Below, in pieces: positions 7,037-34,186 of a stretch of 42,242 bases of DNA. The stretch is from assembly GCA_000747625.2 (NCBI GenBank), contig JQDQ01000203.1, positions 1 through 42,242 of the forward strand. The letters are read 5' to 3'. The position numbers and the translations under genes are program-made. Each line of letters begins with the position of its first letter. Positions within the stretch are counted from its first letter, which is position 1. Source of the DNA: Smithella sp. SCADC (lineage in GTDB: Bacteria; Desulfobacterota; Syntrophia; Syntrophales; Smithellaceae). A model generated the notes under the pieces. It saw only the letters and a list, made by a program, of their open reading frames with translations, had not been told where the DNA came from and searched no databases.

Positions 7037-7040
7037 TATT

Positions 7041-7289
7041 TTATCCAAGTTTTTGTTTGATAACCTTTACAGCATCGCCGATTGTTCTAATTATATCAGC
7101 TTCCTCATCATCAATGCTGATACCATAAACATCTTCACACCTGATGATTACATCAACCAAACGAGCCGAATTTACTTTTAAGTCATTTAAAATGTGTGTC
7201 TCCATCGTGGCCTTGGCCAATACATCCTGATTCTTGGCATAGTCTTTTAAAATGTTAACCATTTCTTCAAATATTTTCTTTTCATCCAT
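7041..7289 (-). CDS. Acyl carrier protein, divergent
   Basis: 82 residues, acidic, four-helix ACP pattern. The phosphopantetheine serine is Ser41 in LKVNSARLVD, where the usual motif is DSL: here the preceding Asp is Asn and the following Leu is Ala. The C-terminal part (DDEEADIIRTIGDAVKVI) is typical. It should carry the growing acyl chain between the ketosynthase, ketoreductase and dehydratase encoded upstream. It lies between the ketosynthase and plsC genes with short gaps. The altered motif suggests a specialised carrier, matched to the transferase in the same operon, not the general AcpP. Confidence 0.88.
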   Translation of the reverse strand: MDEKKIFEEMVNILKDYAKNQDVLAKATMETHILNDLKVNSARLVDVIIRCEDVYGISIDDEEADIIRTIGDAVKVIKQKLG

Positions 7290-7313
7290 AAAAATAACTC
7301 TCCTTATAATATA

Positions 7314-8594
7314 TTAATTTTCGTCCCACTTTTTAAAAATAATGCAGCTATTGACATCGCCAAAACCAAAACCCGCTTTAGCGATAATTTTCAGTTCAGG
7401 AAATTCCAGACATTTTTGCGGAATCTTCGGCGCGAATTTTTCTATATCGGGGTGCACATCCTCACTGTTAATTGACGGATGCAGAAATCCCTTGTAAAGT
7501 TGTAAAATGACGCCCACACATTCTATTGCGCCCGCAGCGCCAAGACAATGACCGATCATTGATTTTGTGGACTGAATGTAAGGAAAGTTCTCCGCAGTTC
7601 GCTCCAGGGCCTCCGCCCAGTTTTTTACTTCATAAGGATCGGCGTAAGTCGCCGTTAAGTGTCCGTTAATGGCATCCACTTCCGCCGGATTAATACCTGC
7701 ATCGGCCACTGCGCCGCGAATGCATCTCTTTACTCCTTCAGAATTAGGCGCGGTCATGGAGCCGCCCATTCTCTGCCCTCCGCAGTTAACATAACCGCCG
7801 ATTATTTCCGCATAGATTCTGGCGCCTCTATTCATCGCTGTTTCCAACTCTTCCAGAACAATCATGCCGCCACCCGAACCGGGCACAAAGCCGCCGGCCG
7901 TAGCGCTTAAGGGACGTGACCCTGACGTGGGATTATCGTTAAATTTGCGGCAAAGCACGCGCATGGCATCAAAACCGCCCCAAATGTAAGGAGTAGCTCC
8001 TTCGGAACCGCCAGCCACCATGCGTTTGGCCAGACCCATTCTTATTCTCCAGACAGCGTCAATAATTGCTTCGTTGCCAGTAGAGCAAGCCGCGGAATTC
8101 GAGGTCACCTGATTGCCTAACCCCAACAAACCGGAAATACGCGCGCTGGTTCCGCTGCTCATAACCTGTTCAACAACACGACTGCCTAAACGCCTTACCC
8201 GTCCTTCATTAATCGTGGGAACTAGAGTATGGGCTATCGTGTCCATGCCGCCGATTCCGGAACCGGCAATGACTCCGGTATCCCAATCCACAGTATCATC
8301 ATCGTCGCTATTAAGATTAAGTCCGGCGTCTTTCCAGGCATCCACCGCCGAAACAGAGGCATAGCCAATGTTATCGTTTATCGATAGAAGTTTTTCACGG
8401 TCAAAGTAACTTTTACGGATTTCATCGAAATTTTCCGGAACACCGGCAATTTGACAGCCGAAATTCAATTCCTGCAATTGAGGAATAAAACGAATACCTG
8501 AAACACCTCCTCTCAGCGCCTTTTCATAATCATCCAGACCGTGAGCGTTGGGAGCTACCACTCCCATTCCCGTAACAACAATTCTCTTTTTCAT
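7314..8594 (-). CDS. Beta-ketoacyl-ACP synthase (FabF-like)
   Basis: 426 residues, the length of KAS II enzymes. Nucleophile Cys170 lies in SNSAACSTGNEA, the first histidine is His312 in NGHLTATYADP, and Lys344/His349 lie in KSMIGHCLGAAG, giving a full Cys-His-His triad. It condenses malonyl-ACP with an acyl primer and extends the chain by two carbons. NGHLTAT replaces the common EAHGTST, so it is a divergent subfamily rather than housekeeping FabF. Its ATG overlaps the dehydratase stop (ATGA), showing tight coupling. Chain length and primer preference are unknown. Confidence 0.9.
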   Translation of the reverse strand: MKKRIVVTGMGVVAPNAHGLDDYEKALRGGVSGIRFIPQLQELNFGCQIAGVPENFDEIRKSYFDREKLLSINDNIGYASVSAVDAWKDAGLNLNSDDDDTVDWDTGVIAGSGIGGMDTIAHTLVPTINEGRVRRLGSRVVEQVMSSGTSARISGLLGLGNQVTSNSAACSTGNEAIIDAVWRIRMGLAKRMVAGGSEGATPYIWGGFDAMRVLCRKFNDNPTSGSRPLSATAGGFVPGSGGGMIVLEELETAMNRGARIYAEIIGGYVNCGGQRMGGSMTAPNSEGVKRCIRGAVADAGINPAEVDAINGHLTATYADPYEVKNWAEALERTAENFPYIQSTKSMIGHCLGAAGAIECVGVILQLYKGFLHPSINSEDVHPDIEKFAPKIPQKCLEFPELKIIAKAGFGFGDVNSCIIFKKWDEN

Positions 8595-9061
8595 TTATCA
8601 ACTCCTACTCCTGATAATTCCGCAACACAAATTATTTCGCCGTTTTCCTTTTCCATGGAAACATTTGCTTTTATAGTATTTTTACGAAAATAGATTTTTT
8701 TCGCTTTAACTATAACTCTTTCGCCCGGCGACACAATTTTTTTAAACTCCACACCATCCGCCAGTGAAAACAAACTAATGGGCAACCTCATCTGACCAGG
8801 CCGCATATTTTTCTGGCGCGACAGAAGGTAAATCCCGAAAGCAACGACACCGGTTTGCGCCATCGCCTCGATAAGAATCACCCCCGGTGTAATGGGATTG
8901 CCGGGGAAATGCCCGCGATAAAAATATTCATCCTCGCGAAAGCGGTAAGCCCCGACTATCTGTTCATCATCAAGGCTGATAATTTCGTCAATAAAACGAA
9001 AAGGTTCCTTCTGCGGAACAAGCTTCAGAACTTCCTGCCTCAAACTGTCATCAGCCTCCAT
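8591..9061 (-). CDS. 3-hydroxyacyl-ACP dehydratase (FabZ-like hot-dog)
   Basis: 156 residues, single hot-dog fold. RGHFPGNPITPGVILIEAMAQ-type signature with catalytic His51 and Glu65. It removes water from 3-hydroxyacyl-ACP to give trans-2-enoyl-ACP. The start at 9061 has GGAGG five bases upstream, lying inside the end of fabG. The 3' end overlaps the ketosynthase start by 4 bp. The neighbours on both sides supply its substrate and use its product. Confidence 0.88.
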   Translation of the reverse strand: MEADDSLRQEVLKLVPQKEPFRFIDEIISLDDEQIVGAYRFREDEYFYRGHFPGNPITPGVILIEAMAQTGVVAFGIYLLSRQKNMRPGQMRLPISLFSLADGVEFKKIVSPGERVIVKAKKIYFRKNTIKANVSMEKENGEIICVAELSGVGVDK

Positions 9062-9779
9062 AAAGTCCTCCGTTGACGTGAATTACCGAACCGGTAATGT
9101 AACTTCCTTTCTTGGCCAGAAAGGCGACAACTTCCGCAACTTCTTCAGGCTTTCCGATACGTCCCAGAATAATTTCATCCATGATTTTATTTTTTACTTC
9201 CTGGGGCAGTTCTTTGGTCATCTCCGTGTCAATGAAACCGGGAGCGACGGAATTAACCAGAATATTTCTTCCCCTGAGTTCCCGCGCCAGAGATCTGGTA
9301 AAGGCATCAAGCGCCGCTTTTTCCATCGTGTAGGGAATCTGGCCGGCGTTTCCTGTATGGCCGACAACACTGGAAATGTTGATTATGCGTCCGGTCGAAG
9401 ACCGAATCATAAATTGGCGTAAAATTCTTTTTGTTAAATACCAGACGCCGCGAGTCAGAGCACGCTGCGCATCAAATTGTTCCACTTTCATCGAAATTAT
9501 ATCGGCATTAATTGATTGTCCGGCGTTGTTAACCAGAACATCAACGCGCCCTACTGTGCCTTTAAGCATACCGATTAGCGCATCCACCTGTTGAATATCG
9601 TACAGATCAGCCTGAATTAAAAATCCATCCTTTATTTCGGCGAGCAGTCTTTGCGCTTTTTCCGCGCTCTTATTGTAATGAATGCCCACATGAAAACCTT
9701 CCGCAGCCAAAGCACGACAGCACGCGGCTCCTATTCCTGTTGCACCACCTGTTACTAAAACAACCGGTTTTTCGATCAT
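9051..9779 (-). CDS. 3-oxoacyl-ACP reductase-like SDR (FabG family)
   Basis: 242 residues from ATG 9779, which has GAGGGG just upstream; a GTG at 9800 is in frame but lies inside the heptad repeats. TGGATGIG binds NAD(P), NNAG follows, and the catalytic Ser/Tyr/Lys are at about 137/150/154 (NISSV, YTMEK). HVNGGLYGG ends the protein in FabG style. It should reduce 3-oxoacyl-ACP to 3-hydroxyacyl-ACP. The helix-4 segment where FabG enzymes carry a conserved active-site Asn reads QRALTRGVWYLTK, with no Asn, so proton relay may differ. It overlaps the dehydratase gene by 11 bp. Confidence 0.86.
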   Translation of the reverse strand: MIEKPVVLVTGGATGIGAACCRALAAEGFHVGIHYNKSAEKAQRLLAEIKDGFLIQADLYDIQQVDALIGMLKGTVGRVDVLVNNAGQSINADIISMKVEQFDAQRALTRGVWYLTKRILRQFMIRSSTGRIINISSVVGHTGNAGQIPYTMEKAALDAFTRSLARELRGRNILVNSVAPGFIDTEMTKELPQEVKNKIMDEIILGRIGKPEEVAEVVAFLAKKGSYITGSVIHVNGGLYGG

Positions 9780-9786
9780 TGTCCCC

Positions 9787-9814
9787 TCTTCACTCTTCAC
9801 TATTCACTTTTCAC
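9787..9814 (-). repeat. Four tandem 7-bp repeats before fabG
   Basis: On the plus strand TCTTCAC, TCTTCAC, TATTCAC, TTTTCAC in tandem; on the coding strand GTGAANA-type units. They fill most of the 43-bp gap between the acyl-CoA dehydrogenase stop and the fabG start and touch the ribosome site. Each unit contains GTG, a potential start codon. Seven-base units can slip and change frame or spacing. Confidence 0.8.
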
Positions 9815-9822
9815 TTTTTTGA

Positions 9823-11022
9823 TTAAACAATTTCCCGTCCAATGATCATGTTTTGCACTTCCCGGACACCTTCGTAAATGTCGATAATATGAGCGTCACG
9901 CGCAAGTTTGGATATTTCATAATCTGCCGTAAAACCATAGCCGCCGTGCAGATGAAGACCTTCAGTTGAACAAAAGATTGCGGCTTCTGCCGCCGTGTTT
10001 TTAGCGAGAGATGCGTAGATACCGGCATCACTTGCTTTTTCCCTAATTTTACAAACTGCTTTAAGAAGAGCCAGTTCCGCCAGTTCCACTTTTTTCCACA
10101 TGGTTGTCAGCATTTCTCTGGCTACAGGAAGATCGCAAAGTCTGTGACCAAATTGTTTGCGCTCCCTTGTATATTCCAAAGTAACCGTAAATGCCCTTTT
10201 GGCTAAACCCAATCCAATTGCCGCAACCATCGGTCGGGCAAAATCCAAAACGTCAACGACATATTTAAAACCAAGCCGCCTGTCTCCAATAACCTGATTC
10301 GGAGGGATAATAACATCTTCAAAAGTTACGCTGGCGGTATTGGATAGTCTTTGTCCCAGCTTATCCTCCGGTTTGCCGATTATTATCTTCCCGCCTGCCG
10401 GCACTTTGATTTCCCTGGTGGCATTTCCGATATCGGGAATATCGGCGGATGTAACCTGCTCTACCGGAACAATAACACAAGCTATAAAATTACCTGTCGG
10501 CTTCCCCACTTTACAAAGAACAGTAAACTGAGAGGCATAGGAAGCATTGGTAATAAAACATTTGGAGCCGTTTAAAACATAATTACCATCGTCATTCTTG
10601 CTGATAAAACTGGTCATCATCGCATTATCGGAACCGGCGTTAGGCTCTGTTAAACAAAAAGAAGCTAAAACAGGTTTATTGACAAAAGGCTTGAGAAATA
10701 ATTCTTTTTGTTCATCCGTGCCATGCAGACTAATTACAACATTAGCTAAATCATTGCACATCGCCGAAGTGGAGATACCTGTATCGCCATAGGAAAGTTC
10801 TTTAATAATCAAGGCCGAAGTAATTGCATCAATCTCATAACCCTGGACAGATTCCGGAATACATAAATTGAGAATGCCCGTTTCCCAGGCTTTGTTAATG
10901 ATATCCCAGGGGAAAACATGACCTTTTTCCAGTTCTAAAATATGCGGTGTTATTTCATTTTTTACAAACTTTCGTACAGTATCCAGGTACGTTAATTGGC
11001 TTTCATTAAGACTCAAATCCAT
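9823..11022 (-). CDS. Acyl-CoA (or acyl-ACP) dehydrogenase
   Basis: 399 residues with the full family architecture. It has a helical N-terminal domain, then CLTEPNAGSDN and FITNASYASQ of the FAD and substrate-binding middle domain. The C-terminal helical domain contains RKQFGHRL and the catalytic base Glu384 in IYEGVREVQ. It is a flavoenzyme that interconverts acyl and 2,3-enoyl thioesters, using electron-transfer flavoprotein as partner. It sits inside an acyl-synthesis operon that lacks a recognisable enoyl reductase (FabI/K/L/V), just upstream of fabG. It may therefore act as the reductase, or introduce a double bond into the ACP-bound chain. Ordinary beta-oxidation is the alternative. Confidence 0.9.
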   Translation of the reverse strand: MDLSLNESQLTYLDTVRKFVKNEITPHILELEKGHVFPWDIINKAWETGILNLCIPESVQGYEIDAITSALIIKELSYGDTGISTSAMCNDLANVVISLHGTDEQKELFLKPFVNKPVLASFCLTEPNAGSDNAMMTSFISKNDDGNYVLNGSKCFITNASYASQFTVLCKVGKPTGNFIACVIVPVEQVTSADIPDIGNATREIKVPAGGKIIIGKPEDKLGQRLSNTASVTFEDVIIPPNQVIGDRRLGFKYVVDVLDFARPMVAAIGLGLAKRAFTVTLEYTRERKQFGHRLCDLPVAREMLTTMWKKVELAELALLKAVCKIREKASDAGIYASLAKNTAAEAAIFCSTEGLHLHGGYGFTADYEISKLARDAHIIDIYEGVREVQNMIIGREIV

Positions 11023-19220: not shown

Positions 19221-20039
19221 TTATAGTTCAGTTAATCTGTAAGCATCCGCATAAGGAATAAATTGTCCTGTAGACTTTTCTTTCCACACAACTTCGCGAT
19301 GGGATGCATCATAAACGTGTTTTGTACTGGGAAACGCGCAGGCTACTTTCTCAATGATTAGCTTCTCTTCCTCAGTTAGTGGTTCTGCCTGTTTCTCTGG
19401 AGCTTTGATGATTGCTGCCACCAAATCCTTATAGTTGTTTAACTGAGGCCCCATAGGCAGCGCGGCATATGTTGCCCCGGTAACACTTTGTCCGGTTTCT
19501 CTGTAGGCTTCCATATCAATGTACCACATATATTTCGCGGCATACAACATCCTGTCATTTTCTTTAAGGATTTTCATCTCCATGACTTTTTCAAGGTAGC
19601 GCAGGGCCAATTTGATTCGGGCAATGGATAATGATCTATTGCCGGTCAATAAATCCCCACACGATTCTCCTGACAATGCCTGAAGAAGCATTTTATTCAT
19701 GGATTGGCTCTGAATGATACCGGTTTCCCAGCGCTTGATGCTTGCAATTCCAATCTTCATCAACTTTGCCAACCTTTCCTGGCTTAAATTTTTCCTTTTT
19801 CGTCCCTCATTGATTTCACTTCCGGTCATCAATCCTACTTTTTTCCGGTAGGCGTCGGCCATGCTTCTTTGTATATCCGCGGCCTGGGTTAATGATGATG
19901 CTTCCAAACCACAAGTTGGACAAACAAAACAATCCACGGGGTAGTCAATGTCCACGCCTTTAAAGGTCATGTGTTTCTTTTTATGGGTTAATTTCATTGC
20001 CCCATGACCTGCCGGACAACTTAATTTTTTCTTTTCCAT
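19221..20039 (-). CDS. Antitoxin: MqsA-like zinc finger, HTH and Panacea (SocA/DUF4065) domain
   Basis: 272 residues from ATG 20039, with AAGGAA upstream and 1 nt after the toxin stop. A zinc finger of MqsA/YgiT type uses Cys8 with C37, C40 and C43 (CFVCPTCG). A helix-turn-helix spans about residues 76-122 (EINEGRKRKNLSQERLAKLM...SIKRWETG). The C-terminal Panacea domain spans about 145-270 (LYAAKYMWYIDMEAYRETGQSVTGATYAALPMGP). The HTH should bind the palindrome upstream of the toxin and repress the operon, while the Panacea or zinc part neutralises the toxin. Gene order toxin-antitoxin matches mqsRA. The domain combination is known in outline for Panacea antitoxins; activity here is inferred. 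Confidence 0.85.
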   Translation of the reverse strand: MEKKKLSCPAGHGAMKLTHKKKHMTFKGVDIDYPVDCFVCPTCGLEASSLTQAADIQRSMADAYRKKVGLMTGSEINEGRKRKNLSQERLAKLMKIGIASIKRWETGIIQSQSMNKMLLQALSGESCGDLLTGNRSLSIARIKLALRYLEKVMEMKILKENDRMLYAAKYMWYIDMEAYRETGQSVTGATYAALPMGPQLNNYKDLVAAIIKAPEKQAEPLTEEEKLIIEKVACAFPSTKHVYDASHREVVWKEKSTGQFIPYADAYRLTEL

Positions 20040-20040
20040 A

Positions 20041-20406
20041 TTACTTTCCTTTTTTTTCTGGCCGATCCCTATGCAGAGATACCAACCATAATTTATCATC
20101 TTTTATTGTAAATTTATAATAAACTGTACACCCTATTTTTTTACTTGTTGTTTTAAACGCAAACAACTCACAACCTGAAATAACCGTCTCATAAGACCTT
20201 TGAGGTGGGTGCGTACCCACATAATCATCAGGCCTTGTATTTTCCAAAAGCTCGCAGAGGATTTGCGGTATTTCCTCCACACTGCGGCCAAGTTCCATCA
20301 GATCCGCAATAATGACATCAGGCGTCACCAGAACGATATCACCTTTCTCACTGGCTTTTTGAGCAAGCAAGACTTTGCCTGTAATTGTCTTTCGAGAAGG
20401 TAGCAT
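20041..20406 (-). CDS. Putative MqsR-like toxin
   Basis: About 121 residues. Two helices in the first half (VIIADLMELGRSVEEIPQIL) are followed by a strand-rich end, YYKFTIKDDKLWLVSLHRD. This fits the RelE/MqsR fold, where MqsR ends with a VYLKITVIHDVLIVSF-like strand pair. MqsR homologues cleave mRNA. An ATG at 20415 is also in frame, but it lies under the -10 box. The predicted transcript begins next to ATG 20406 with no ribosome site, so translation may be leaderless. The assignment rests on secondary-structure pattern and on the MqsA-like partner; catalytic residues are not proven. Confidence 0.65.
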   Translation of the reverse strand: MLPSRKTITGKVLLAQKASEKGDIVLVTPDVIIADLMELGRSVEEIPQILCELLENTRPDDYVGTHPPQRSYETVISGCELFAFKTTSKKIGCTVYYKFTIKDDKLWLVSLHRDRPEKKGK

Positions 20407-20413
20407 TGGCCGC

Positions 20414-20442
20414 ATGGTATCAATTGATACTATTTATGTCAA
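20414..20442 (-). promoter_or_regulatory. Promoter and palindromic operator of the toxin-antitoxin pair
   Basis: On the minus strand TTGACA (20437-20442), 17-bp spacer, TACCAT (20414-20419). The perfect 14-bp palindrome GTATCAATTGATAC (20417-20430) fills the spacer and overlaps the -10. That is the expected place for autorepression by the HTH antitoxin. The predicted start of RNA is about 20407, at the toxin ATG. Confidence 0.72.
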
Positions 20443-20594
20443 TCTTTTTTTACATCTGAAATTTGTTTGATAAAAGAGACACAAAGAGTTAAATACTGGA
20501 AACGATAATATTGCATTAATTTTAAAATTGCACCACAGCCATCTTTGCCTCATTAAGCGCTGTTTTAAGTTTAGTATCTGTTCCCTGTAATTGA

Positions 20595-20805
20595 ATAGTG
20601 CCAGTATGATGGCATCATCAAGTGCAATGCTCCAAGCCCCCACCTTCGTACCAGCCGTCCGATGAGCTTCGTCGAAAATGCCGATATCGAATTTTGCCCC
20701 TGACTTACTCACAGCTTTGGACAAAACTTTGGATGACTGATAAGTGGAAAAAATGATGCTACTCTTTGCGTGGTAAAAACTAACAAAACATTTCTCATGT
20801 TGCAA
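20595..20805 (-). pseudogene. Fragment of a DEAD/DEAH-type helicase
   Basis: The frame encodes IIFSTYQSSKVLSKAV followed by FDIGIFDEAHRTAG, which is motif II (DEAH) and its flank from superfamily-2 helicases of restriction or defence type. The similarity ends soon after ALDDA. Motifs I, III, V and VI are absent, and downstream sequence in this frame is not helicase-like. A different frame after about 20600 gives a protein-like C-terminus (TGTIQLQGTDTKLKTALNEAK). It is a relic, possibly of a defence island that also brought the toxin-antitoxin genes. Confidence 0.6.
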
Positions 20806-25507: not shown

Positions 25508-25522
25508 TATTCGGGAGTGGAT

Positions 25523-25888
25523 GTGTACAGCTTACTTACCGACTTAATAGTCCTGGCACATTTCTCATTTATTGTTTTTATTATTTGTGGTGGTTTGTTA
25601 GTTATTCGCTGGCCTAAAATTGCTTTTATACATTTACCTGCGGTAGTTTGGGGAGCAATTGTGGAATTTTTCGGATGGATTTGCCCGTTAACACCTCTGG
25701 AAAATTATTTTCGTAATCTGGCTGGTGCTAATCAATACAGCGGTGATTTTGTTATGCGATACCTTGTTCCGATAATCTACCCGGAAACTTTGACATCTAC
25801 GATACAAACAGTTCTGGGTATTGCGGTTATCGTAATAAATGTTTTTGCCTACACCATTGCATTACGTAAACATATGCACAGTTGGTAA
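25523..25888 (+). CDS. DUF2784 membrane protein
   Basis: About 121 residues with three or four hydrophobic segments. LIVLAHFSFIVFIICGGLLVIRWP-type start, AFIHLPAVVWGAIVEFFGW and CPLTPLENYFR match the DUF2784 family of small inner-membrane proteins. GTG 25523 is preferred because GGGAG lies five bases upstream; GTG 25517 lies right at that site. No biochemical role is known. It is 15 bp after the carboxylase and overlaps the next gene by 7 bp, which ties it to the downstream cluster. Confidence 0.82.
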   Translation: MYSLLTDLIVLAHFSFIVFIICGGLLVIRWPKIAFIHLPAVVWGAIVEFFGWICPLTPLENYFRNLAGANQYSGDFVMRYLVPIIYPETLTSTIQTVLGIAVIVINVFAYTIALRKHMHSW

Positions 25889-26223
25889 TAAAAAAATTGA
25901 TCCATTCGATATTTCTACAGATTTCTCGTTTAAACAACTCACACAATAAAAACTATGAATGCCCCCAAGGAAACGAAGAAAACGCGGTTAATTTATTTCT
26001 CAATCAGCTCCAGCAGGAAGAACTTGTTATTGTCATAGATGACAAATTGACCGATTCGCCCCTGCCGCAGAACTGGAAAAATCAAATTATGACAAATGGA
26101 AGCAAAACAGTTTTTAATGCCCCCGTTTTGAATAAATATACTGATATGCAGGATTTGTTGATTTTGGATCCGATTCATGAAGTGGATGCTACAGGATGGC
26201 CTTCAACCAAACCTTCAGAATGA
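25882..26223 (+). CDS. Shortened PqqD-like (RRE) protein with C-terminal tail
   Basis: 113 residues from TTG 25882; no better start is visible. The stretch EENAVNLFLNQLQQEELVIVID matches the last helix of PqqD-type peptide-recognition domains, which usually read like veeFLeqLeeegLi. The N-terminal hairpin and first helices of the fold are not recognisable, so it is short or truncated. The C-terminus, APVLNKYTDMQDLLILDPIH then EVDATGWP, is an acidic, hydrophobic tail with a look of its own. I have the impression that similar tails occur on PqqD-like proteins next to HPr-kinase-related genes, but cannot verify this. It overlaps the DUF2784 stop and precedes the nucleotidyltransferase by 27 bp. 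Likely role: binding or presenting a peptide. Confidence 0.6.
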   Translation: MVIKKLIHSIFLQISRLNNSHNKNYECPQGNEENAVNLFLNQLQQEELVIVIDDKLTDSPLPQNWKNQIMTNGSKTVFNAPVLNKYTDMQDLLILDPIHEVDATGWPSTKPSE

Positions 26224-26250
26224 TCGGAGTGAACCAATTTTTCAAACTGT

Positions 26251-27411
26251 ATGAATAATACGATAAACTCCGGAAATTTTGATTTAGTGACACCCCCTCA
26301 GGAACTACTCTTAAAAGCAGCTCTGCTTTCAGGCGAAGAAGCGCTTGAATCTTGGAGAAAATGGCAGGATGCGATTGACTGGAACGAATTTCTCGATCAT
26401 GGTTCTTTCCGTTTACTCCCTCTACTTTATACTAATCTGTATAATCATGGTGTTGATGATCCCGCCATGGGAAAACTTAAAGGAATTTATCGTCAGGCCT
26501 GGAGTAAAAATCAAACACTCTTCCATGAGATGGCCAAGGTTGTCAAATATCTGCAACATGCAGGCATTAAGACAATGCTTCTCAAAGGAGCTTCTTTATC
26601 GCTGCTTTATTATAAAAATAACGGCGCCCGGCCAATGGCCGATATAGATGTTCTTGTACCTTTTAAACAAGTGCGCCAAGCCTGTGAATTACTGCAAAAA
26701 GCTGGATGGACATCACCTCTACCGTTATCTGAACTGGATTTGACTTTTGGCCATGCCGTTCAGTTGAATAACAGCGTTAATCAGGAATTTGATCTTCACT
26801 GGCACCCATTTAATAGTTGCTGTGACGAGTATGAAAAAGATTTCTGGGATGGAGCAATCCCTGTAAAGATGGCAAACGTTAATTCTTTGGCGCCCAACCC
26901 CACAAATATGTTATTTCATGTGATCATTCATGGGATGGCCTGGAATCCGGTTCCGTCAATCCGCTGGGTCGCTGACGCGATAACCCTGATTAACTCGGAT
27001 AACTTCGCCATAGATTGGCAACAATTAGTCGATATGGCTCGGAAACAATATTTATCGCTGCGGTTAAATAATGGACTGCAATATTTGTATGATAATTTTC
27101 ATCCTTCAATCCCTCCATCTGTAATGGCGTCAGCATTAAATCTTCCCGCATCTTATCTCGAAAAGATTGAATATCGTTTTATGATACGTAACCGGGATGA
27201 AGAAAGCTCCGGGCCTTACAATGCGTTCTTTTGCCATCTTTGCCGTTTTCGCAGATTAAATTCAGGAAAAGTTATTTTCCCCATTGGTAAATTTTTCAGG
27301 TCTTTGCAGTGGAGAATGAATGCAAGTAATAACTATGAACTCTTTTACAAAGGTTTAAGACTTTCTGCGAATATGTTTCTTTCCAGACCGTTTCAAGTTC
27401 GTCGCCGTTGA
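26251..27411 (+). CDS. Nucleotidyltransferase family protein (NTP_transf_5)
   Basis: 386 residues. The nucleotidyltransferase core is seen as MLLKGASLSLLYY (109-121) followed by ARPMADIDVLV with paired aspartates at 131 and 133, then EFDLHWHP (about 180). This is the pattern of the NTP_transf_5 family often found next to PqqD-like and HPr-kinase-like proteins. It may move a nucleotide to a peptide, sugar or protein hydroxyl; the target is unknown. A helical C-terminal half follows. No clear ribosome site precedes the ATG. Confidence 0.8.
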   Translation: MNNTINSGNFDLVTPPQELLLKAALLSGEEALESWRKWQDAIDWNEFLDHGSFRLLPLLYTNLYNHGVDDPAMGKLKGIYRQAWSKNQTLFHEMAKVVKYLQHAGIKTMLLKGASLSLLYYKNNGARPMADIDVLVPFKQVRQACELLQKAGWTSPLPLSELDLTFGHAVQLNNSVNQEFDLHWHPFNSCCDEYEKDFWDGAIPVKMANVNSLAPNPTNMLFHVIIHGMAWNPVPSIRWVADAITLINSDNFAIDWQQLVDMARKQYLSLRLNNGLQYLYDNFHPSIPPSVMASALNLPASYLEKIEYRFMIRNRDEESSGPYNAFFCHLCRFRRLNSGKVIFPIGKFFRSLQWRMNASNNYELFYKGLRLSANMFLSRPFQVRRR

Positions 27412-27450
27412 TTTTTTAATTCTTAACTAAAGAAACAGGATATTTGATTT

Positions 27451-29247
27451 ATGTACAAACCACAGAAAAGCGAAGCCGAACAACATGATTTTTTTAACAA
27501 GAGCTATGATAAGTTTCTCCAGGCAAAGTCCGCCGCCGGTGAAATCAATTTCTATTATCGTATAGCCGATACGACCGTATGTTTGAAATTCGCCGGGGAG
27601 CGGCTTGTTCCCTACCTTACACCGGCACTGGATCATCTCCGTTTGACTGATGATTGCGTCCCCGACTTTACAATCTGCATTTGGGACAGCGACTCTACAA
27701 AAGTGGAAATGGTTCCTCCGCCCTGTACAAAAGATTGCTTTACCGACCGGGGTGACATTTGGGGTTTTAATAGTCATCGTATAAAAGCGGCTTTTCATTG
27801 GATTGAATGTTCCGTAAATCTCATGGATCTTGATAAAAAAACGGGGATTTATTGGGTGCAAACAGCCGAGACATTACCTTACTGGGTGGTAGCTTCTCCT
27901 TTGCGAACAATTTTCCATTGGTGGATGGAGAATAACGGATGCCAGCTTCTGCACGCAGCGGCAGTGGGCAATGAAAATGGTGCGGTGTTAATCACAGGAA
28001 AAGGAGGAGTTGGTAAATCAACAACAGCCTTATCCTGCCTTCAGGATGGTCTTTTCTATATTGCTGATGATTATGTGATAACCAAACTTAAACCTGCTCC
28101 CGCTGTTGTAAGTCTATACTGCACAGCGAAGTTAAATGCCGATCACGTTATTAATTTTCCTGATTTATCCAGACTTATTAATAATACTGAAAAACTCGAT
28201 CAGGAAAAGGCTGTGCTTTTTCTAAATCACAACCTTGATCAAAAGTTAGTTACGGAAATGCCTCTCAAGGCAATCTTAACACCTCAAATTGCTGATGAAC
28301 ATGATTCCCATATTAAACCTGTTTCCCGTTGGGACATTCAAAGGGCAATGTCATTTACAACCATGTCTCAATTGCCGTATGTCGGTGATCATACTCATAA
28401 TTATATAAGCCAATTAGCTTCATCACTGCCGCATTATATTCTGGAGATCGGAAAAGATTTTACCAGAATACCGGTAGCTATATCTGATTTCTTATCTGAT
28501 CCCGATAATTTTCCAGTCATTAAAGATACTGAACCCTGGAGTTTATGTCGCAAAGATGAAAGACCTTTGGTCAGTGTGATCATCCCTGTTTATAATGGAG
28601 AGAATTTTATCAGAGAAGCGGTTGAGAACGTATTGTCACAAAAATATCCGGCACTGGAAATAATAATTATTAATGATGGTTCCACGGATGGGACAGAGGC
28701 AATAATCACACAGCTTCCTGTCGATGTCCGCTATTTAACCCAGACCAACAGCGGACCCGCTGCGGCGCGAAATAAAGGTATCCGTGACGCTTCGGGAGAA
28801 TTTATCACTTTTCTCGATGCTGATGACCTGTGGCCTGAGAATAATTTGAATATCATGGTTGATGAAATGCTTAGAAACCCTGAAATGGATGTTATTCGCG
28901 GATATGCGCAACTCATGGAATTTGACAAAACAGGCGGAGGCTTTAAATACGTCGGTAATCCCAAGGAATCATTTCCGGATTATATCGGTGCGGCCATATA
29001 CCGTAAATCGGCGTTCGGAAAAGTGGGACTTTTTGATCCCATGCTCAGATTCGGTGAAGACGCGGACTGGTATATCCGTGCCCGTGAAAAGCAGTTAAAT
29101 ATAAAACGCTTGGAAGAAACCTCCTTATTTGTTCGAAGACATGGGGGAAATATGACGGAAGGGAAAAATATGGTCGAATTGAATGCTTTGAAAGTATTCA
29201 AGAAATCTATCGAACGAAGAAGAATGCAAGGACAAACTCAAAATTGA
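27451..29247 (+). CDS. HPr-kinase-like domain fused to GT2 glycosyltransferase
   Basis: 598 residues in one frame. Residues 1-350 resemble HPr serine kinase-related proteins: LLHAAAVGNENGAVLITGKGGVGKSTTA-type P-loop (Gly183-Thr191) followed by FYIADDYVIT (about 203-211). Residues 371-598 are a family-2 glycosyltransferase: LVSVIIPVYNGENF, IINDGSTDGT, the DADD metal motif at 456-459 and GEDADWYIRA. The kinase-like part probably phosphorylates a Ser/Thr or a small molecule; the GT part uses a nucleotide sugar. The fusion links the two steps physically. The stop overlaps the next GT2 start (TTGA). No sign of a frame error at the junction. Confidence 0.85.
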   Translation: MYKPQKSEAEQHDFFNKSYDKFLQAKSAAGEINFYYRIADTTVCLKFAGERLVPYLTPALDHLRLTDDCVPDFTICIWDSDSTKVEMVPPPCTKDCFTDRGDIWGFNSHRIKAAFHWIECSVNLMDLDKKTGIYWVQTAETLPYWVVASPLRTIFHWWMENNGCQLLHAAAVGNENGAVLITGKGGVGKSTTALSCLQDGLFYIADDYVITKLKPAPAVVSLYCTAKLNADHVINFPDLSRLINNTEKLDQEKAVLFLNHNLDQKLVTEMPLKAILTPQIADEHDSHIKPVSRWDIQRAMSFTTMSQLPYVGDHTHNYISQLASSLPHYILEIGKDFTRIPVAISDFLSDPDNFPVIKDTEPWSLCRKDERPLVSVIIPVYNGENFIREAVENVLSQKYPALEIIIINDGSTDGTEAIITQLPVDVRYLTQTNSGPAAARNKGIRDASGEFITFLDADDLWPENNLNIMVDEMLRNPEMDVIRGYAQLMEFDKTGGGFKYVGNPKESFPDYIGAAIYRKSAFGKVGLFDPMLRFGEDADWYIRAREKQLNIKRLEETSLFVRRHGGNMTEGKNMVELNALKVFKKSIERRRMQGQTQN

Positions 29248-29921
29248 AACCATTGATAAGTGTTATCCTGCCTGTTTTTAACGGAGAGAAATATCTCGCC
29301 GAAGCGATTGAAAGCGTGCTGGCTCAATCTTATTGTCCGCTGGAATTAATAATCGTAGACGACGGTTCAACTGATGGAAGTGCGGCAATCGCTCAAAGCT
29401 ATAAGGAGACGCGATATATTTACCAGAGTAACATGGGCGTTGCGGTTGCACGTAACACCGGCCTCGCTGCTGTTAAAGGAGATTTTATCGCTTTCCTGGA
29501 TGCTGATGATATATGGCATCCACTCAAGCTACAAATACAAATTGATTATCTGCAGGAACATCCTTCCGTTATGTACACATTATCGAAAATAAATAATTTT
29601 GTAGAACCAGGATGCAATATACATCCCGATAAATTACAATCCATTTTAAAAAACGAACAAATAAACCTGGCGTCACTGGTTGCCCATAAAGCAGTTTTTG
29701 ACCAGATAGGCGGATTTAATCCCCGTTATCATGTCAGTGAAGATTTTGACTGGATTACGCGGGCTAAAGACGCAGGCATACCCATGGTGATTCTCCCTGA
29801 AGTTCTTTTGCAAAGACGCATTCATAATTTTAATATATCATTCACGCAACTACAGGCTTGTATAGCCAACAGGTTTCACATATTAAAAGAGTCCATAGAT
29901 CGTCAGCGCATAAAAAAATGA
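29244..29921 (+). CDS. Family-2 glycosyltransferase
   Basis: 225 residues, start TTG 29244 overlapping the previous stop by 4 bp. GT-A fold: LISVILPVFNGEKYL, VDDGSTDGS, AVARNTGL, FLDADDIW (metal site) and SEDFDWITRA (acceptor and base region). It transfers a sugar from a nucleotide donor; no transmembrane anchor. It is close in sequence to the GT2 part of the upstream fusion and to the next gene, suggesting tandem duplication. Confidence 0.88.
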   Translation: MKPLISVILPVFNGEKYLAEAIESVLAQSYCPLELIIVDDGSTDGSAAIAQSYKETRYIYQSNMGVAVARNTGLAAVKGDFIAFLDADDIWHPLKLQIQIDYLQEHPSVMYTLSKINNFVEPGCNIHPDKLQSILKNEQINLASLVAHKAVFDQIGGFNPRYHVSEDFDWITRAKDAGIPMVILPEVLLQRRIHNFNISFTQLQACIANRFHILKESIDRQRIKK

Positions 29922-29930
29922 TGGCAAACA

Positions 29931-30620
29931 ATGAATTATAATCCTCTGATCAGTGTCATTATCCCTGTTTACAATGGTGATAAATATCTTGCCGAAGCCA
30001 TTGAAAGCGTACTTACCCAAACCGGTTTCAGACTTGATTTAATCGTTGTGGATGATGGATCTATCGACAATACAGCAAAGGTCGCCGAAAGTTTTGGTTC
30101 TTTAATCCGGTATAATTATCAAATTAACGCGGGAATTGGTGCTGCCCGTAATAGGGGCATCGCATTAGCAAAGGGAGATTTTTTTGCCTTTCTTGATGCG
30201 GACGATCTCTGGACGGAAAACAAAATAAAACGACAATTGATGGCATTTGAAGCGGATCCTCATCTGGATATAGCCTTTGGTCACATCCAGCAATTTTATA
30301 GCCCGGATTTGACTCAGTCGGAGAAAGACCGGATAAACATTCCCGTAGAAATCATGCAGGGACATCATACAGGTACAATGCTCATTAAAAAAAAATCTTT
30401 TTTACATGTCGGTTTATTCAATGAAGAATTAAGAATCGGCGAATTTATTGACTGGTATGCCAGAGCTATGGAATTAAACATCAAGAGTATCATGCTGACG
30501 GATGTTCTTTTGAAGCGACGTATCCACAATACTAATCAAGGAATTTCTCAGCGTGATCAAAGATCAGGATATGTTCATGCATTAAAAGCAGCTTTGGACC
30601 GCCGACGTGGCGGGAGGTAA
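29931..30620 (+). CDS. Family-2 glycosyltransferase
   Basis: 229 residues. LISVIIPVYNGDKYL, VDDGSIDNT, GAARNRGIALAKGD, FLDADDLW, and a late IGEFIDWYARA in which the ED pair of its neighbours is replaced by EF. So the catalytic-base position may be altered. It is the third GT2 domain in a row and lies 9 bp after the second. Soluble, likely acting at the cytoplasmic face. Confidence 0.87.
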   Translation: MNYNPLISVIIPVYNGDKYLAEAIESVLTQTGFRLDLIVVDDGSIDNTAKVAESFGSLIRYNYQINAGIGAARNRGIALAKGDFFAFLDADDLWTENKIKRQLMAFEADPHLDIAFGHIQQFYSPDLTQSEKDRINIPVEIMQGHHTGTMLIKKKSFLHVGLFNEELRIGEFIDWYARAMELNIKSIMLTDVLLKRRIHNTNQGISQRDQRSGYVHALKAALDRRRGGR

Positions 30621-30656
30621 TTTTTCAAATCTCGTTTTCTTAGTCAAGGATTTACC

Positions 30657-31712
30657 ATGTTACATCAAATAAGCAATAACAGACGCGATCTTCTATGGGA
30701 AAGACCATTGGAGTCAATTGCCATTGTGCTTACAATGCGATGTAATCTCCGCTGTAAAATGTGTGGTGTATGGGGAAGTCATATTAAAGATATACCTTAT
30801 GAAAAGGTTTTATCCCTACTGGATAACGCATATGAATTGGGAGCTCGTCACTTTGATCCCTTTGGTACGGAACTCTTCGTGCGGAATGATATGCCGGATA
30901 TCCTTGCCTATGCAGAACAAATCGGATTTCGTGAAATATATGTTGTGTCCAATGGACTTTTATTAAATCGGTCTTCATTGCTCGATCTCCTGTCAAAGTT
31001 GAAGAGTCTGGTAATGATTATATCCATAGATGGTCCCAAAGCTATCCATGACGAACCGCGAGGTAATGGCGTATATAACAGGGCTGTTTCTTCACTTCGC
31101 GAACTTATTTGCAAGGGAATAAAAACCAGTATTGCTTCAATTATTATGCGCCCGACCCTCAACCATTTGGACAAAATTGTCGATCTGGCTGCTGATCTGA
31201 ATATTCCTGTCATTTCCATGCAACCTTATAATCGTGATCTGGCAGGTCCTGATTGCGATCATTTAATGTTTGAATTCAGAATTGATGAAAAGAAAATGCT
31301 CGCCAATAAAATAAATAATCTTTTAAAATACGCACGACAAAAAAACGTAATTTATACGGAAAACATGTTGAAATATGTGGCACCTTATCTTGCCGAAGGT
31401 GTAAACCCTTTTCCTACCAAAGATTGTCAGATTCCGTCTAAAACGTTGGTTGTTGACATTGAGGGCAATACTAATCCATGTTTTGTGATCAAGAGAAACA
31501 TGGGCAACATAAACGAAACGAATCTCTCTTCGATCTGGCACAGTGATATACGCAAAGAGTTCGTCACATCGGCCCTCGCCAAAAAATGCTCCAGATGTCT
31601 TAGAGCCTGTAGTGATGTGGATGGTTATAATAGCAAGGGAATAAAGAACAGCAAATTCTTCAATGTTATGGATTGGCGATTAGTACGTTATTTAAAAAAG
31701 ATTTCAAATTAA
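30657..31712 (+). CDS. Radical SAM/SPASM enzyme
   Basis: 351 residues. CNLRCKMC places the 4Fe-4S ligands at Cys29, Cys33 and Cys36. The barrel continues through YVVSNGLLL and ISIDGPKAIHDEPRG. The C-terminal SPASM-like region has Cys257, Cys275 and CSRCLRAC (311, 314, 318) for auxiliary clusters. Relatives modify ribosomal peptides or proteins (PqqE and anSME-like), though some act on sugars. AAGGA precedes the ATG by about 7 nt. It sits between GT2 genes and a membrane protein and downstream of a PqqD-like gene, which favours a peptide substrate. The substrate is not identified. Confidence 0.87.
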   Translation: MLHQISNNRRDLLWERPLESIAIVLTMRCNLRCKMCGVWGSHIKDIPYEKVLSLLDNAYELGARHFDPFGTELFVRNDMPDILAYAEQIGFREIYVVSNGLLLNRSSLLDLLSKLKSLVMIISIDGPKAIHDEPRGNGVYNRAVSSLRELICKGIKTSIASIIMRPTLNHLDKIVDLAADLNIPVISMQPYNRDLAGPDCDHLMFEFRIDEKKMLANKINNLLKYARQKNVIYTENMLKYVAPYLAEGVNPFPTKDCQIPSKTLVVDIEGNTNPCFVIKRNMGNINETNLSSIWHSDIRKEFVTSALAKKCSRCLRACSDVDGYNSKGIKNSKFFNVMDWRLVRYLKKISN

Positions 31713-31737
31713 TGAAAAGAAATTTAAAGGCAGCGCA

Positions 31738-33120
31738 ATGTGTCAAAATCTGACCAGATTAAAAAAATTGGGCGTGTTTCTTACGGCTGCACTTATTTTG
31801 TCCTGCGTAGCATTTTACAACGGTTATCCTCTGGTTTATCCTGACACAGGCGGCTATATCGGTTTACAGGATAATTTGATACGCAGTCTCTTTTACAATC
31901 TTTTTATTTTCCCCTCTTTATGGTTTAAATCTCTTTGGCCTGTTGTTTTTCTGCAATCCCTTATCATTGCTCATCTTCTTCAGCTTGTTCTGCGCGTCGT
32001 CTTCAAAACAACTTCTCTATTCTTCTATCTCCTGATAATAACGCTTCTTTGCGCTCTCACAAATCTGCCTTGGTTTACAGGCTTTATCATGCCGGACATA
32101 TTTACAGGAACAATGATTCTTTCACTTTATCTCTTAATCTTTTGCACCGATCACTTAAGTCTTGGTGAAAAAATATATCTTTTCCTGCTTACAGTATTAT
32201 CCGCCACTGTTCATTTAACTCATATTCCTCTCGCCGTGGGTGTTATTGCTATTTCCTGGTTTTTCCGGATGTTCATCAAAAATAAAGAATTTCTTCCCAT
32301 GCCGCGTTTATTAATCTCATGTTGCGCAATATCTCTCGCTTTTATACTTATTATTGCCAATAACTACCGTCTCTATGGCGCATTTACAATGTCTCGCGGA
32401 GGATACGCTTTTCTTCTGTCAATGTTGATTTGCGATGGCCCGGCAGTGAATTATCTCGAAGAGAGCTGTCCTTCGAAAAGATATAAACTTTGTGATTATA
32501 TCGATGAATTGCCTTCCCAGCCCGATCAGTTTCTCTGGTCTGTAGAAAGCCCGTTTCGCAAAGTTGGTTGGATAAGCGGCTATCGTATAGAGGGAAACGA
32601 AATCATTAAAGAAACAATAATACGTTTTCCTTTTTTAATAATCAAGAATTCCCTCTTAAATACAATTCGTCAGTTACCCATGATTAACAATTGGTATGGT
32701 ATATGTTCCTATATTAAGTTTCCATATCCCACTGAAATAATCAGGGATTATTACCCGAGCGATTTCCATGCCTATGCAACATCCAGGCAAAGTTTAAATT
32801 CATTATCCCTGAATTTTTTCAATCGTCTTCACCGTACGGTAATTTGTTTTAGCTTGCTACTTGCACCTTTTATGTTCATCATCTTTCTGAAGTATCGACA
32901 ATATCTGCCGTCACTTCTGCTGATTTCGATAGCTTGTGCTTATGTCATTAGTTCGTTCATTACCGGCACATTAAATCCACATAATCGATATGGAAGCCGT
33001 ATTATCTGGCTACTGCCTTTCTTCAGCATGGCATCGTTGATGCATGTTATTGATAACTGGAAAGAGTATTTACGGACAAGGATTGACAATAGTGTTCATA
33101 CGTCTGGGATTAGAAAATAA
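31738..33120 (+). CDS. Polytopic membrane protein, GT-C-like
   Basis: 460 residues with about 9-11 hydrophobic segments. The first extracytoplasmic loop reads NGYPLVYPDTGGYI, with an Asp after helix 1, as in GT-C glycosyltransferases, and a soluble insert lies at about 235-330. AAAGG lies 7 nt before the ATG. No motif fixes the reaction. It could transfer a lipid-linked sugar on the periplasmic side. It resembles in style the frameshifted membrane protein at 20953. The gene overlaps the next one by 29 bp. Confidence 0.75.
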   Translation: MCQNLTRLKKLGVFLTAALILSCVAFYNGYPLVYPDTGGYIGLQDNLIRSLFYNLFIFPSLWFKSLWPVVFLQSLIIAHLLQLVLRVVFKTTSLFFYLLIITLLCALTNLPWFTGFIMPDIFTGTMILSLYLLIFCTDHLSLGEKIYLFLLTVLSATVHLTHIPLAVGVIAISWFFRMFIKNKEFLPMPRLLISCCAISLAFILIIANNYRLYGAFTMSRGGYAFLLSMLICDGPAVNYLEESCPSKRYKLCDYIDELPSQPDQFLWSVESPFRKVGWISGYRIEGNEIIKETIIRFPFLIIKNSLLNTIRQLPMINNWYGICSYIKFPYPTEIIRDYYPSDFHAYATSRQSLNSLSLNFFNRLHRTVICFSLLLAPFMFIIFLKYRQYLPSLLLISIACAYVISSFITGTLNPHNRYGSRIIWLLPFFSMASLMHVIDNWKEYLRTRIDNSVHTSGIRK

Positions 33121-34186
33121 ATTAAGGACCTGGGCTGCAACAGCATTGCCCATCCGATGGTTAGAACCATACATGCGTGGCGGCGATTGCATAGTCTTTT
33201 CGTCAAATCCTCTCATTATCTACGTCACAGACTGGATTATACGCAGTAGGGCTGCCGCACTGCTTTCGGCTCTCCGAATATTCAAACAACAGACTGTCTA
33301 CTTGCTAATTCATCTTTCCTGGGTTCACGACATTCCCCGGCGGATCAAACAACTAAAACTTCCGCAGTCTCGTCATTTGCGACGGTACCCACGTCACAGG
33401 ATGATATTTATGTCCAACAGTGAACAGGAATACCGAATGCTGGCCGCTGCCGGTTTGGAGACTACCTGGGTTAGCCACAACGCTTTTGTCAGTCCGGCAA
33501 TTTTCAGAATTCTGCCATTGTCCGAGAAAATCTTTGACGCAGTATACGATGCCCGAATAAGTCCCTTCAAACGACATAACTTGGCAAATAGAATACAAAG
33601 CCTCGCTCTGATCACGGCACGCGCCCCTTATCTTCACGATGAATCTTACACCCGCTCGATTAAAAATGTCCTGCCGCAGGCACACTGGTTCAACGATCCG
33701 CTCGCGACCGATTACCGGTGGATGAGTTTTTCCGACATTAACACTGCGCTCAATCAATGCCGCGTCGGCCTTTGTCTCTCCGCCGAGGAAGGGGCTATGT
33801 TAGCGAGCATGCAGTATCTACTGGCAGGACTGCCCATTGTCTCTACACAGAGCCGAGGTGGCCGTGATGAATTTTTTGCCCCGGATTATGTGCAAATTGT
33901 TGGTGATAATGCTGAGGATGTCGCTGCCGGCGTCAGTAAGATGCGCGAATGTTCAGTTCCTCCCGATGAAATCAGACGTCTCACACTTGAAAAGATCGAG
34001 CAGCACAAGTTACGGCTTTTTGAGTTACTCGATGCCATTTGTTCTGCTGAAGGTTTACACGTGGATTTGCGCCAACGCTGGGACTCTTGGAATGTAAGGC
34101 TGTTCGCCAATGTCACGCCTGACGTCATCCGTAAACATATCGAGGACGCGGCAATCTCTCAATATATTTCCCCGCGTGAAATGTAA
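33092..34186 (+). CDS. GT4-like glycosyltransferase
   Basis: About 364 residues. The start is placed at GTG 33092 (AAGGA nine bases before); the frame is open further upstream inside the membrane protein gene. The C-terminal Rossmann part has CLSAEEGAMLASMQYLLAGLP-type sequence with the E..G..P pattern of GT-B retaining enzymes, then ETS-like STQSRGGRDEFF. The N-terminal half has TWVSHNAF. It probably adds a sugar to the product of the preceding cluster. Base composition looks richer in GC than the two genes before it, so it may be a later addition. It is the last gene of the plus-strand cluster. Confidence 0.75.
   Translation: MFIRLGLENKLRTWAATALPIRWLEPYMRGGDCIVFSSNPLIIYVTDWIIRSRAAALLSALRIFKQQTVYLLIHLSWVHDIPRRIKQLKLPQSRHLRRYPRHRMIFMSNSEQEYRMLAAAGLETTWVSHNAFVSPAIFRILPLSEKIFDAVYDARISPFKRHNLANRIQSLALITARAPYLHDESYTRSIKNVLPQAHWFNDPLATDYRWMSFSDINTALNQCRVGLCLSAEEGAMLASMQYLLAGLPIVSTQSRGGRDEFFAPDYVQIVGDNAEDVAAGVSKMRECSVPPDEIRRLTLEKIEQHKLRLFELLDAICSAEGLHVDLRQRWDSWNVRLFANVTPDVIRKHIEDAAISQYISPREM

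Follow-up and report, generated by a model that had tools for sequence, protein, structure and literature searches.

A PqqD-type protein with a near-invariant C-terminal tail, its HprK-like kinase, glycosyltransferase and nucleotidyltransferase neighbours, and a possible kinship with LPP pathways

RREs, the recognition elements of ribosomally synthesised and post-translationally modified peptides (RiPPs), bind peptides. Discrete RREs of lasso peptide pathways recognise the motif [Y/W]xxPx[L/V/I/F/A], which, according to the available parts of Popov et al. 2026 (PMC13381572), is shared by the precursors of linear polyphosphorylated peptides (LPP). The same source describes LPP precursors with conserved leaders and variable cores, loci that lie among capsule genes, and a kinase, LppK, that polyphosphorylates one Ser of the core (PMC13381572). 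A Ser is also phosphorylated by the paeninodin kinase, and in the case of pseudomycoidin a nucleotidyltransferase adds one or two hexoses to the phosphorylated lasso peptide in vivo, as stated in the accessible portions of PMC8498205. The present text concerns a gene cluster of Smithella sp. SCADC that encodes a related set of enzymes. It lies on contig JQDQ01000203.1 (C200), the whole of which, 42242 bases, was analysed and is called the window below. On balance, we lean towards reading the operon as a RiPP-like pathway in which the RRE and the substrate peptide form one polypeptide, whose tail is modified by the enzymes encoded next to it. Its best reading is that of a self-guided relative of LPP.

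The cluster comprises nine plus-strand open reading frames (ORFs), from 25517 (DUF2784) to 34186 (GT4-like), that overlap or are separated by 39 bp at most. Gene order, strand and tight spacing thus agree with a preliminary description of this DNA. The second gene had been called PqqD-like there. The name suits the scanned relatives, whose protein consists of a full PqqD domain followed by a C-terminal extension, but the window copy, a remnant of 113 residues (25882–26223), gave no PqqD match with Pfam and lacks 62 codons. The earlier account mentioned neither the conserved tail nor that the domain is missing here. The features that matter most are listed here (counts out of 80 refer to the loci defined below):
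25882–26223, plus strand: RRE-tail remnant with the last part of the PqqD domain and the tail, the first 62 codons absent (alignment and own-genome search).
26113–26130, plus strand: aromatic-xxPxL motif FNAPVL, predicted RRE-binding motif of the leader type (F/Y/W in 80/80 and P in 77/80 tails; AlphaFold2 models of two relatives).
26167–26202, plus strand: conserved tail core DPIHEVDATGWP, the proposed modified segment (D, P, H and final P in 80/80; G 79, W 78).
26251–27411, plus strand: NTP_transf_5 nucleotidyltransferase with D-x-D (D131, D133; PF14907, 137.4 bits, cut-off 31.2).
27451–29247, plus strand: HprK-like kinase (PF07475, E 4.6e-6, 26.7 bits, below the cut-off of 33.3) fused to a family 2 glycosyltransferase (GT2; PF00535, 124.1 bits).
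27997–28023, plus strand: P-loop GKGGVGKST of the kinase (conservation; alignment with residues 167–211 of the HprK in PDB 1jb1, E 0.0043).

Two samples were used for comparison; genomes, contigs and loci are designated G, C and L. The first holds 60 genomes of the same order, the window's own assembly (G000; 3.19 Mb, 244 contigs, estimated completeness 94.7%, contamination 8.2%) counted in. The second holds 80 loci, the best 80 of 204 relatives from one scan of species genomes. The search used two peptide patterns, the tail itself containing one of them (DP..H), and the matches were then ranked by likeness to a tailed protein; owing to this tail-based choice, tail-less kin are under-represented. 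By record title, 74 of the 80 fall into 18 phyla and six have no phylum, a number that is approximate, since a locus titled Myxococcota (L087) matches a genome of the window's own genus (G010). Six loci (L056, L057, L087, L092, L098 and L135) appear identical to contigs among the 60 genomes.

The tail has the consensus [F/Y/W]xxPxLxK[YF][TS]DM..LLLLDPIH[ED]V[DS]xxGWP. When the tails are aligned on DPxH, an aromatic residue stands 18 positions upstream in all 80 (F in 64, Y in 14, W in 2). The P of the xxP position is present in 77, and two positions further on there is L, I, F, M or V in every case. The M, D, P and H and the final P of GWP are found in 80 of 80 tails, the G in 79 and the W in 78. 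Beyond GWP follow 3 to 20 residues without a common sequence. The tail core occurs in 80 of the 5457 ORFs of these loci and is always preceded by at least 70 residues. The aromatic-xxPxL motif lies outside both search patterns; DP..H lies inside one, so its conservation is partly selected for. In a phylum census, an RRE-tail profile matched in 41 of 395 genomes. The match reached model position 138 or beyond in seven of them (G000, G002, G008, G149, G270, G333 and G405), ended at position 125 in G077 and spanned the RRE only in the remainder.

Structure prediction places the motif confidently. In AlphaFold2 models of two relatives, residues 111–120, which hold the motif, have a mean pLDDT (the model's per-residue confidence score) of 97 (L135, Smithella clade) and 94 (L112, Oscillatoria). 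A strand is assigned just after PxL, at residues 118–120 and 116–119, respectively, and in the L112 model it follows a linker whose residues 88–98 score under 50. When the L135 model was compared by Foldseek, the six top matches were all lasso RREs whose structures had been determined together with leader peptides (5v1v, 5v1u, 6jx3). In crystal structures described in the available parts of PMC13381572, the residues just after PxL extend the RRE sheet. Because the predicted strand occupies the same place as in these published complexes, it would pair with the RRE sheet in the leader groove.

The tailed gene keeps constant company. It was found in 11 of the 60 genomes, the window's own included, and the ten others contribute 11 loci. 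All 11 have HprK-like and GT2 genes nearby, and 10 have NTP_transf_5, the eleventh being a contig of 3 kb. In the 80 loci, neighbours were counted over all ORFs within 8 kb of the tailed gene, with profiles built from the neighbourhoods; in a subset of 45 loci the flanks reach 5 kb or more upstream and 8 kb or more downstream. HprK-like genes were found in 71 of 80 loci (42 of 45 with long flanks), on the same strand as the tailed gene in 70 of the 71 and at a median distance of 24 bp. For GT2 the counts are 74 of 80 and 45 of 45, with 68 of 74 on the same strand, and for NTP_transf_5 they are 53 of 80 and 35 of 45, with 41 of 53 on the same strand. As a position control, matches were counted per 2-kb bin in 36 loci with 9.5 kb on each side. 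Of 35 HprK-like genes, 30 lie 0–2 kb downstream and three in the whole 10 kb upstream; 75 of 92 GT2 genes lie 0–6 kb downstream and 11 upstream; 30 of 37 NTP_transf_5 genes lie downstream, spread over 0–10 kb. The presence of HprK and GT2 in all loci of the relatives and in most of the 80, together with the sharp peak just downstream, means that their association with the tailed gene exceeds chance. The earlier suspicion that the PqqD-like, HprK and NTP_transf_5 genes belong together, and point to the phosphorylation, nucleotidylation or glycosylation of a peptide, is thereby strengthened. The GT2 genes had been taken for a second world joined to this trio; their positions and the HprK-GT2 fusions show them instead as part of the same cassette.

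The order of genes recurs as well. Locus L127 has RRE-tail, HprK, three GT2, ABC transporter and NTP_transf_5 genes, most junctions of which overlap by 4 bp, and this order is repeated in L062 (with five GT2 genes), L112 and L125. In L138, the cassette lies on the 44-kb mobilizable plasmid pCRI9333.04 of Crinalium epipsammum, which is annotated with a PqqD family protein, a nucleotidyltransferase family protein, an HPr kinase, an FkbM methyltransferase and glycosyltransferases, with an ABC transporter further on and also an SMP-30 protein. The tail of the plasmid protein has one extra residue before GWP. Within the window's genus there are about five cassette types by identity, and G002 alone carries two different ones, on contigs C20 and C25. 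Another ORF family, "cluster 9", occurs in 48 of the 80 loci, in 46 cases on the opposite strand; it was interpreted as an artefact of antisense ORFs and dropped. A quick-method HprK tree with many long branches and weak forks was set aside.

The enzymes retain key residues. In the kinase, the P-loop (G183, G185, G186, G188, K189), H168 and D206-D207 are each kept in 46–54 of 54 homologues, and D131 and D133 of the NTP_transf_5 protein in 25 of 28; we take these to be the catalytic residues. The kinase is weakly like known HprK in sequence (1jb1, as above). Its fusion to GT2 is found in the window and in four of the 60 genomes (G002, G005, G009 and G014), and among the 80 loci only in L135, which is the same record as G002. 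The fusion suggests that kinase and GT2 act on one substrate.

The proposed pathway would run as follows. The aromatic-xxPxL segment of the tail would dock in the RRE groove of its own chain, just as the leaders of lasso peptides and LPP bind in trans. The segment K[YF][TS]DM..LLLLDPIHEVDxxGWP would thereby be presented to the HprK-like kinase, the GT2 enzyme or enzymes and NTP_transf_5, which would add phosphate as well as sugar or nucleotide groups to it. A linear, probably phosphoglycosylated peptide or protein tail would result. The Smithella-like genome would have gained radical SAM, GT-C-like and GT4-like genes, and its assembled copy of the substrate protein lacks the RRE part. We infer that the tail is the substrate, that docking occurs in cis in the groove and that the steps follow in this order. 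More tentatively, such proteins may form a class of "self-guided" RRE-precursors that yields a phosphorylated, glycosylated peptide of almost constant sequence. This peptide would serve the same role wherever the class occurs, in about 18 phyla and also on a mobilizable plasmid of a cyanobacterium. So little variation in the tail points to a cofactor, signal or surface anchor that is common to its carriers, and less to a weapon under diversification. If this is true, uncharacterised PqqD-family, HPr-kinase-like and NTP_transf_5 genes of many phyla would gain one function and a testable substrate. Peptide, binding domain and enzymes could be co-expressed from one operon, making the peptide chemistry of NTP_transf_5 and GT2 directly measurable, and HprK-type peptide phosphorylation, known for the LPP and paeninodins of Bacillota, would reach far past that phylum.

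Several observations weigh against a modified tail. LppK and the paeninodin kinase use Ser, whereas the tail has no invariant Ser or Thr: the T/S of KY[TS]DM is present in 68 of 80 tails, and two of the 80 lack any Ser or Thr from the aromatic residue on. The acceptor is therefore uncertain; it may be this common T/S, another residue such as the invariant H, or something outside the tail. The DPIH...GWP end is modelled with low confidence (pLDDT 53–61), and AlphaFold2 may have learned the placement of the motif from known RRE-leader complexes. The choice of loci by tail likeness inflates the conservation of the tail. In 12 of 53 loci NTP_transf_5 is encoded on the opposite strand, and no leader peptidase was identified among 10 window proteins and the top 25 of 103 families in 76 operon neighbours (the 76 of 99 unlabelled operon ORFs taken into the Pfam scan, the 23 others being mostly short or overlapping). 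ABC transporter genes occur within 8 kb of the tailed gene in 26 of 80 loci (17 of 45 with long flanks) and show no positional peak in the 36 control loci (10 downstream, 7 upstream), so export has no positional support; an ABC exporter was dropped as a core part on this control. Finally, the same tail occurs without HprK within 8 kb in nine of the 80 loci (eight from Chloroflexota, one gammaproteobacterial), some of them near contig ends, and may thus serve something besides the kinase.

These last loci and the missing invariant Ser/Thr would also suit a tail that is a built-in leader mimic or docking handle, filling the RRE groove or binding a shared partner, while the enzymes in truth modify another protein, or a distinct precursor whose gene lies elsewhere. 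A conserved leader with a variable core is the rule in LPP, as far as the available parts of PMC13381572 describe it. Such a handle is unlikely, though: conservation is highest past the RRE-binding motif (M, DPxH, GWP) and exceeds what a groove plug needs. Furthermore, a scan for aromatic-xxPx[LVIFMA] among the small plus-strand ORFs of 70 operons found no alike ORF that could be a precursor; the scan took in 70 of the 80 loci, the other ten having no clean ORF for the tailed protein in the automatic operon call. ORFs with the motif were present in 10 of the 70 loci, none alike by eye, and were taken as chance, and on the plus strand of the window cluster the remnant alone carries the motif. 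Still less probable, in our judgement, is a surface-polysaccharide or glycolipid cluster in which a glycan or lipid carrier is the substrate of HprK, NTP_transf_5 and the GT2 enzymes, and the RRE-tail protein has no role beyond organising these enzymes. The many glycosyltransferases, the GT-C-like membrane protein and the GT4-like enzyme would fit it, as would the sulfotransferases and SGL/SDR enzymes of relatives, and LPP loci likewise lie among capsule genes (available parts of PMC13381572). Peptides are, however, what RREs bind, the tail bears a leader motif, and those homologues of HprK and NTP_transf_5 whose activity is known have peptide substrates. A RiPP-like pathway with a modified tail remains the preferred reading.

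The window copy itself is a separate matter. In G002, G009 and G014 the gene encodes 153 residues (the G005 copy is cut by a contig end), and homology of the window protein begins only at residue 63 of the relatives' protein. The window protein is 67–81% identical to those of G002, G005, G009 and G014, counted from its residue 22 or 23. By nucleotide alignment, codons 1–62 and the upstream region are missing. G002, G009 and G014 have a promoter-like TTGACA-17-TATATT some 160 bases ahead of the start, a site that occurs nowhere in the window. The junction lies at 25840–25960, where about 0.35 kb of the G002 sequence, with the promoter-like site and the 62 codons, is missing; no direct repeat was found there. 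When the full protein was searched against the window's own assembly, the sole matches were the remnant and, on contig C173, a PqqD protein without the tail; the N-terminal half was not found elsewhere. The missing RRE part reflects either decay, by a real deletion, or misassembly. As the copy lacks most of its RRE, the pathway may be dead in this genome. That the window set is a decaying remnant without function is a real possibility, if less than an even one, and is compatible with the preferred reading of an intact family elsewhere. The loss of the PqqD domain and of the promoter-like site speaks for decay. On the other hand, the downstream genes are intact and under purifying selection against relatives (dN/dS about 0.06–0.22 in all seven genes tested of the nine, about 0.16–0.22 in the remnant), and misassembly of a metagenome bin could account for the junction.

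On C173 (locus L055, G000:C173:8000-25456), the stretch 7026–10898 holds a second NTP_transf_5 gene together with those of the tail-less PqqD protein of 88 residues and an HprK-like protein of 330 residues; directly upstream is a protein that by eye resembles an ATP-grasp enzyme.

The remaining genes of the window cluster are:
25517–25888, plus strand: small DUF2784 membrane protein (PF10861, 130.1 bits).
29244–29921, plus strand: GT2 glycosyltransferase b with a TTG start, overlapping the stop of the fusion gene (PF00535, 125.6 bits).
29931–30620, plus strand: GT2 glycosyltransferase c (PF00535, 113.0 bits).
30657–31712, plus strand: radical SAM (S-adenosylmethionine)/SPASM enzyme, a lineage-specific accessory (PF04055, 46.1 bits, cut-off 29.5; PF13186, 41.6 bits, cut-off 21.5).
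31738–33120, plus strand: polytopic membrane protein with 8 hydrophobic segments, GT-C-like by the label of the preliminary description, accessory.
33092–34186, plus strand: GT4-like glycosyltransferase (weak matches to PF13692/PF00534, below cut-off).

The DUF2784 gene at the head of the run is probably a neighbour and not part of the set, since a BLAST relative was found in only one of the 80 loci (L135). The GT4-like gene probably starts at GTG 33092 rather than at 33044; the G002 homologue of its protein aligns from residue 17. The polytopic membrane protein has no Pfam match, and the radical SAM protein reached the cut-off of none of 25 NCBIfam models (the best 25 of 66). Radical SAM homologues (E ≤ 1e-25) are found in three of the 60 genomes (the own one, G002 and G014) and GT-C-like homologues (E ≤ 1e-15) in four (the own one, G002, G005 and G009), in each case at this locus. 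Within the order, the check proposed earlier, whether homologues of these genes turn up apart from the trio, thus favours a true grouping. Radical SAM proteins of other types are present at the loci of G008, G009 and G010. Only seven of the 80 loci have a radical SAM gene near the tailed gene (six loci, in L057 on the other strand, and L071 by CxxxCxxC count), so the enzyme was rejected as a core gene. Both the radical SAM and the GT-C-like gene are additions that the core received in particular lineages. What had been called a hybrid cluster is mostly one recurring cassette with local additions; two joined worlds find no support.

Accessory genes differ elsewhere too. At least six of the 76 scanned operon neighbours are sulfotransferases. 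Six of the nine HprK-less loci have ABC transporter and AMP-ligase/carrier-type genes nearby, a combination seen beside the tailed PqqD gene in the Chloroflexota loci L064, L066, L075, L089 and L120. Four of these five have import-permease and NMT1-like binding-protein genes in between, and sulfotransferases lie near in L075 and L120. An anti-phage defence system was thought unlikely on a PADLOC scan of five window proteins: the RRE-tail, NTP_transf_5 and GT4-like proteins had no match, the HprK-GT2 protein matched mad8 with E 0.0093, and the radical SAM protein matched pVip (E 1e-9, 36.3 bits), which may be superfamily likeness. Outside the cluster, at 19221–20805, three short minus-strand ORFs encode a helix-turn-helix protein with Panacea (SocA-like) and a sub-cut-off MqsA-like match, a protein without match and a sub-cut-off ResIII fragment; this is perhaps a remnant toxin-antitoxin or restriction locus.

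Among known systems, those of mycofactocin and pyrroloquinoline quinone (PQQ) have a PqqD-like RRE, a radical SAM/SPASM enzyme and a near-invariant peptide, and mycofactocin also a GT2. To our knowledge, HprK and NTP_transf_5 are absent from both; a further difference is that the radical SAM enzyme is non-core in the present cassette. The HprK-related kinases A and B (TIGR04352, TIGR04355) share the HprK-like kinase domain, with scores far below the cut-offs of 200: 40.3 bits for the window kinase against TIGR04355 and 22–30 bits for the kinases of relatives against TIGR04352.

Lasso peptides of the paeninodin/pseudomycoidin type come closer, with a B1-type RRE fold, an HprK homologue, a nucleotidyltransferase and a leader motif (available parts of PMC8498205). 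The RRE fold of lasso and LPP pathways is present in the relatives of the window protein; the motif has mostly F here (64 of 80) and Y/W in the known systems, and binding is predicted only. Neither the transglutaminase-like lasso peptidase B2 (PF13471) nor the asparagine-synthase-like cyclase (PF00733) is encoded in the window cluster. In searches of 36 of the 80 host genomes, mostly those with longer contigs, B2 matched anywhere in 15 and nowhere in 21, and lasso membership was set aside on these results; PF00733 matched in 35, housekeeping kin included. In Oscillatoria PCC 10802 (L112; G470:C3:4235464-4240170), a B2-like gene lies about 10 kb and a cyclase-like gene about 13 kb from the tailed gene, which echoes the LPP/lasso neighbourhood reported for Bacilli.

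The tailed family was found undescribed in the open-access literature of one library, where the LPP and lasso papers were found instead. As far as the available parts of Popov et al. 2026 (PMC13381572) go, LPP has a lasso-type RRE, an HprK-like kinase paired with an NTP transferase and the aromatic-xxPx[L] motif, all of which recur here; in both, there is no macrolactam cyclase and the set lies among glycosyltransferase genes. An SpI-like peptidase, as in LPP, was not seen among the window proteins and the neighbour families scanned, and no MsbA-like transporter is encoded in the window operon, ABC transporters being without a positional peak in the loci at large. Unlike LPP, as described there, the present cassette has GT2 in its core, and it occurs in many phyla, whereas LPP is reported in Bacillota (PMC13381572). 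LPP has a discrete RRE, a separate precursor (YxxPxVLxHQxIxFETxxS) and a variable core (PMC13381572), whereas here the RRE is fused to a near-invariant tail. Since a discrete RRE with a separate precursor and a B2/cyclase pair were both looked for and not found in the cluster, the cassette is classed with neither LPP nor lasso pathways but as a variant of peptide modification by RRE, HprK and NTP transferase.

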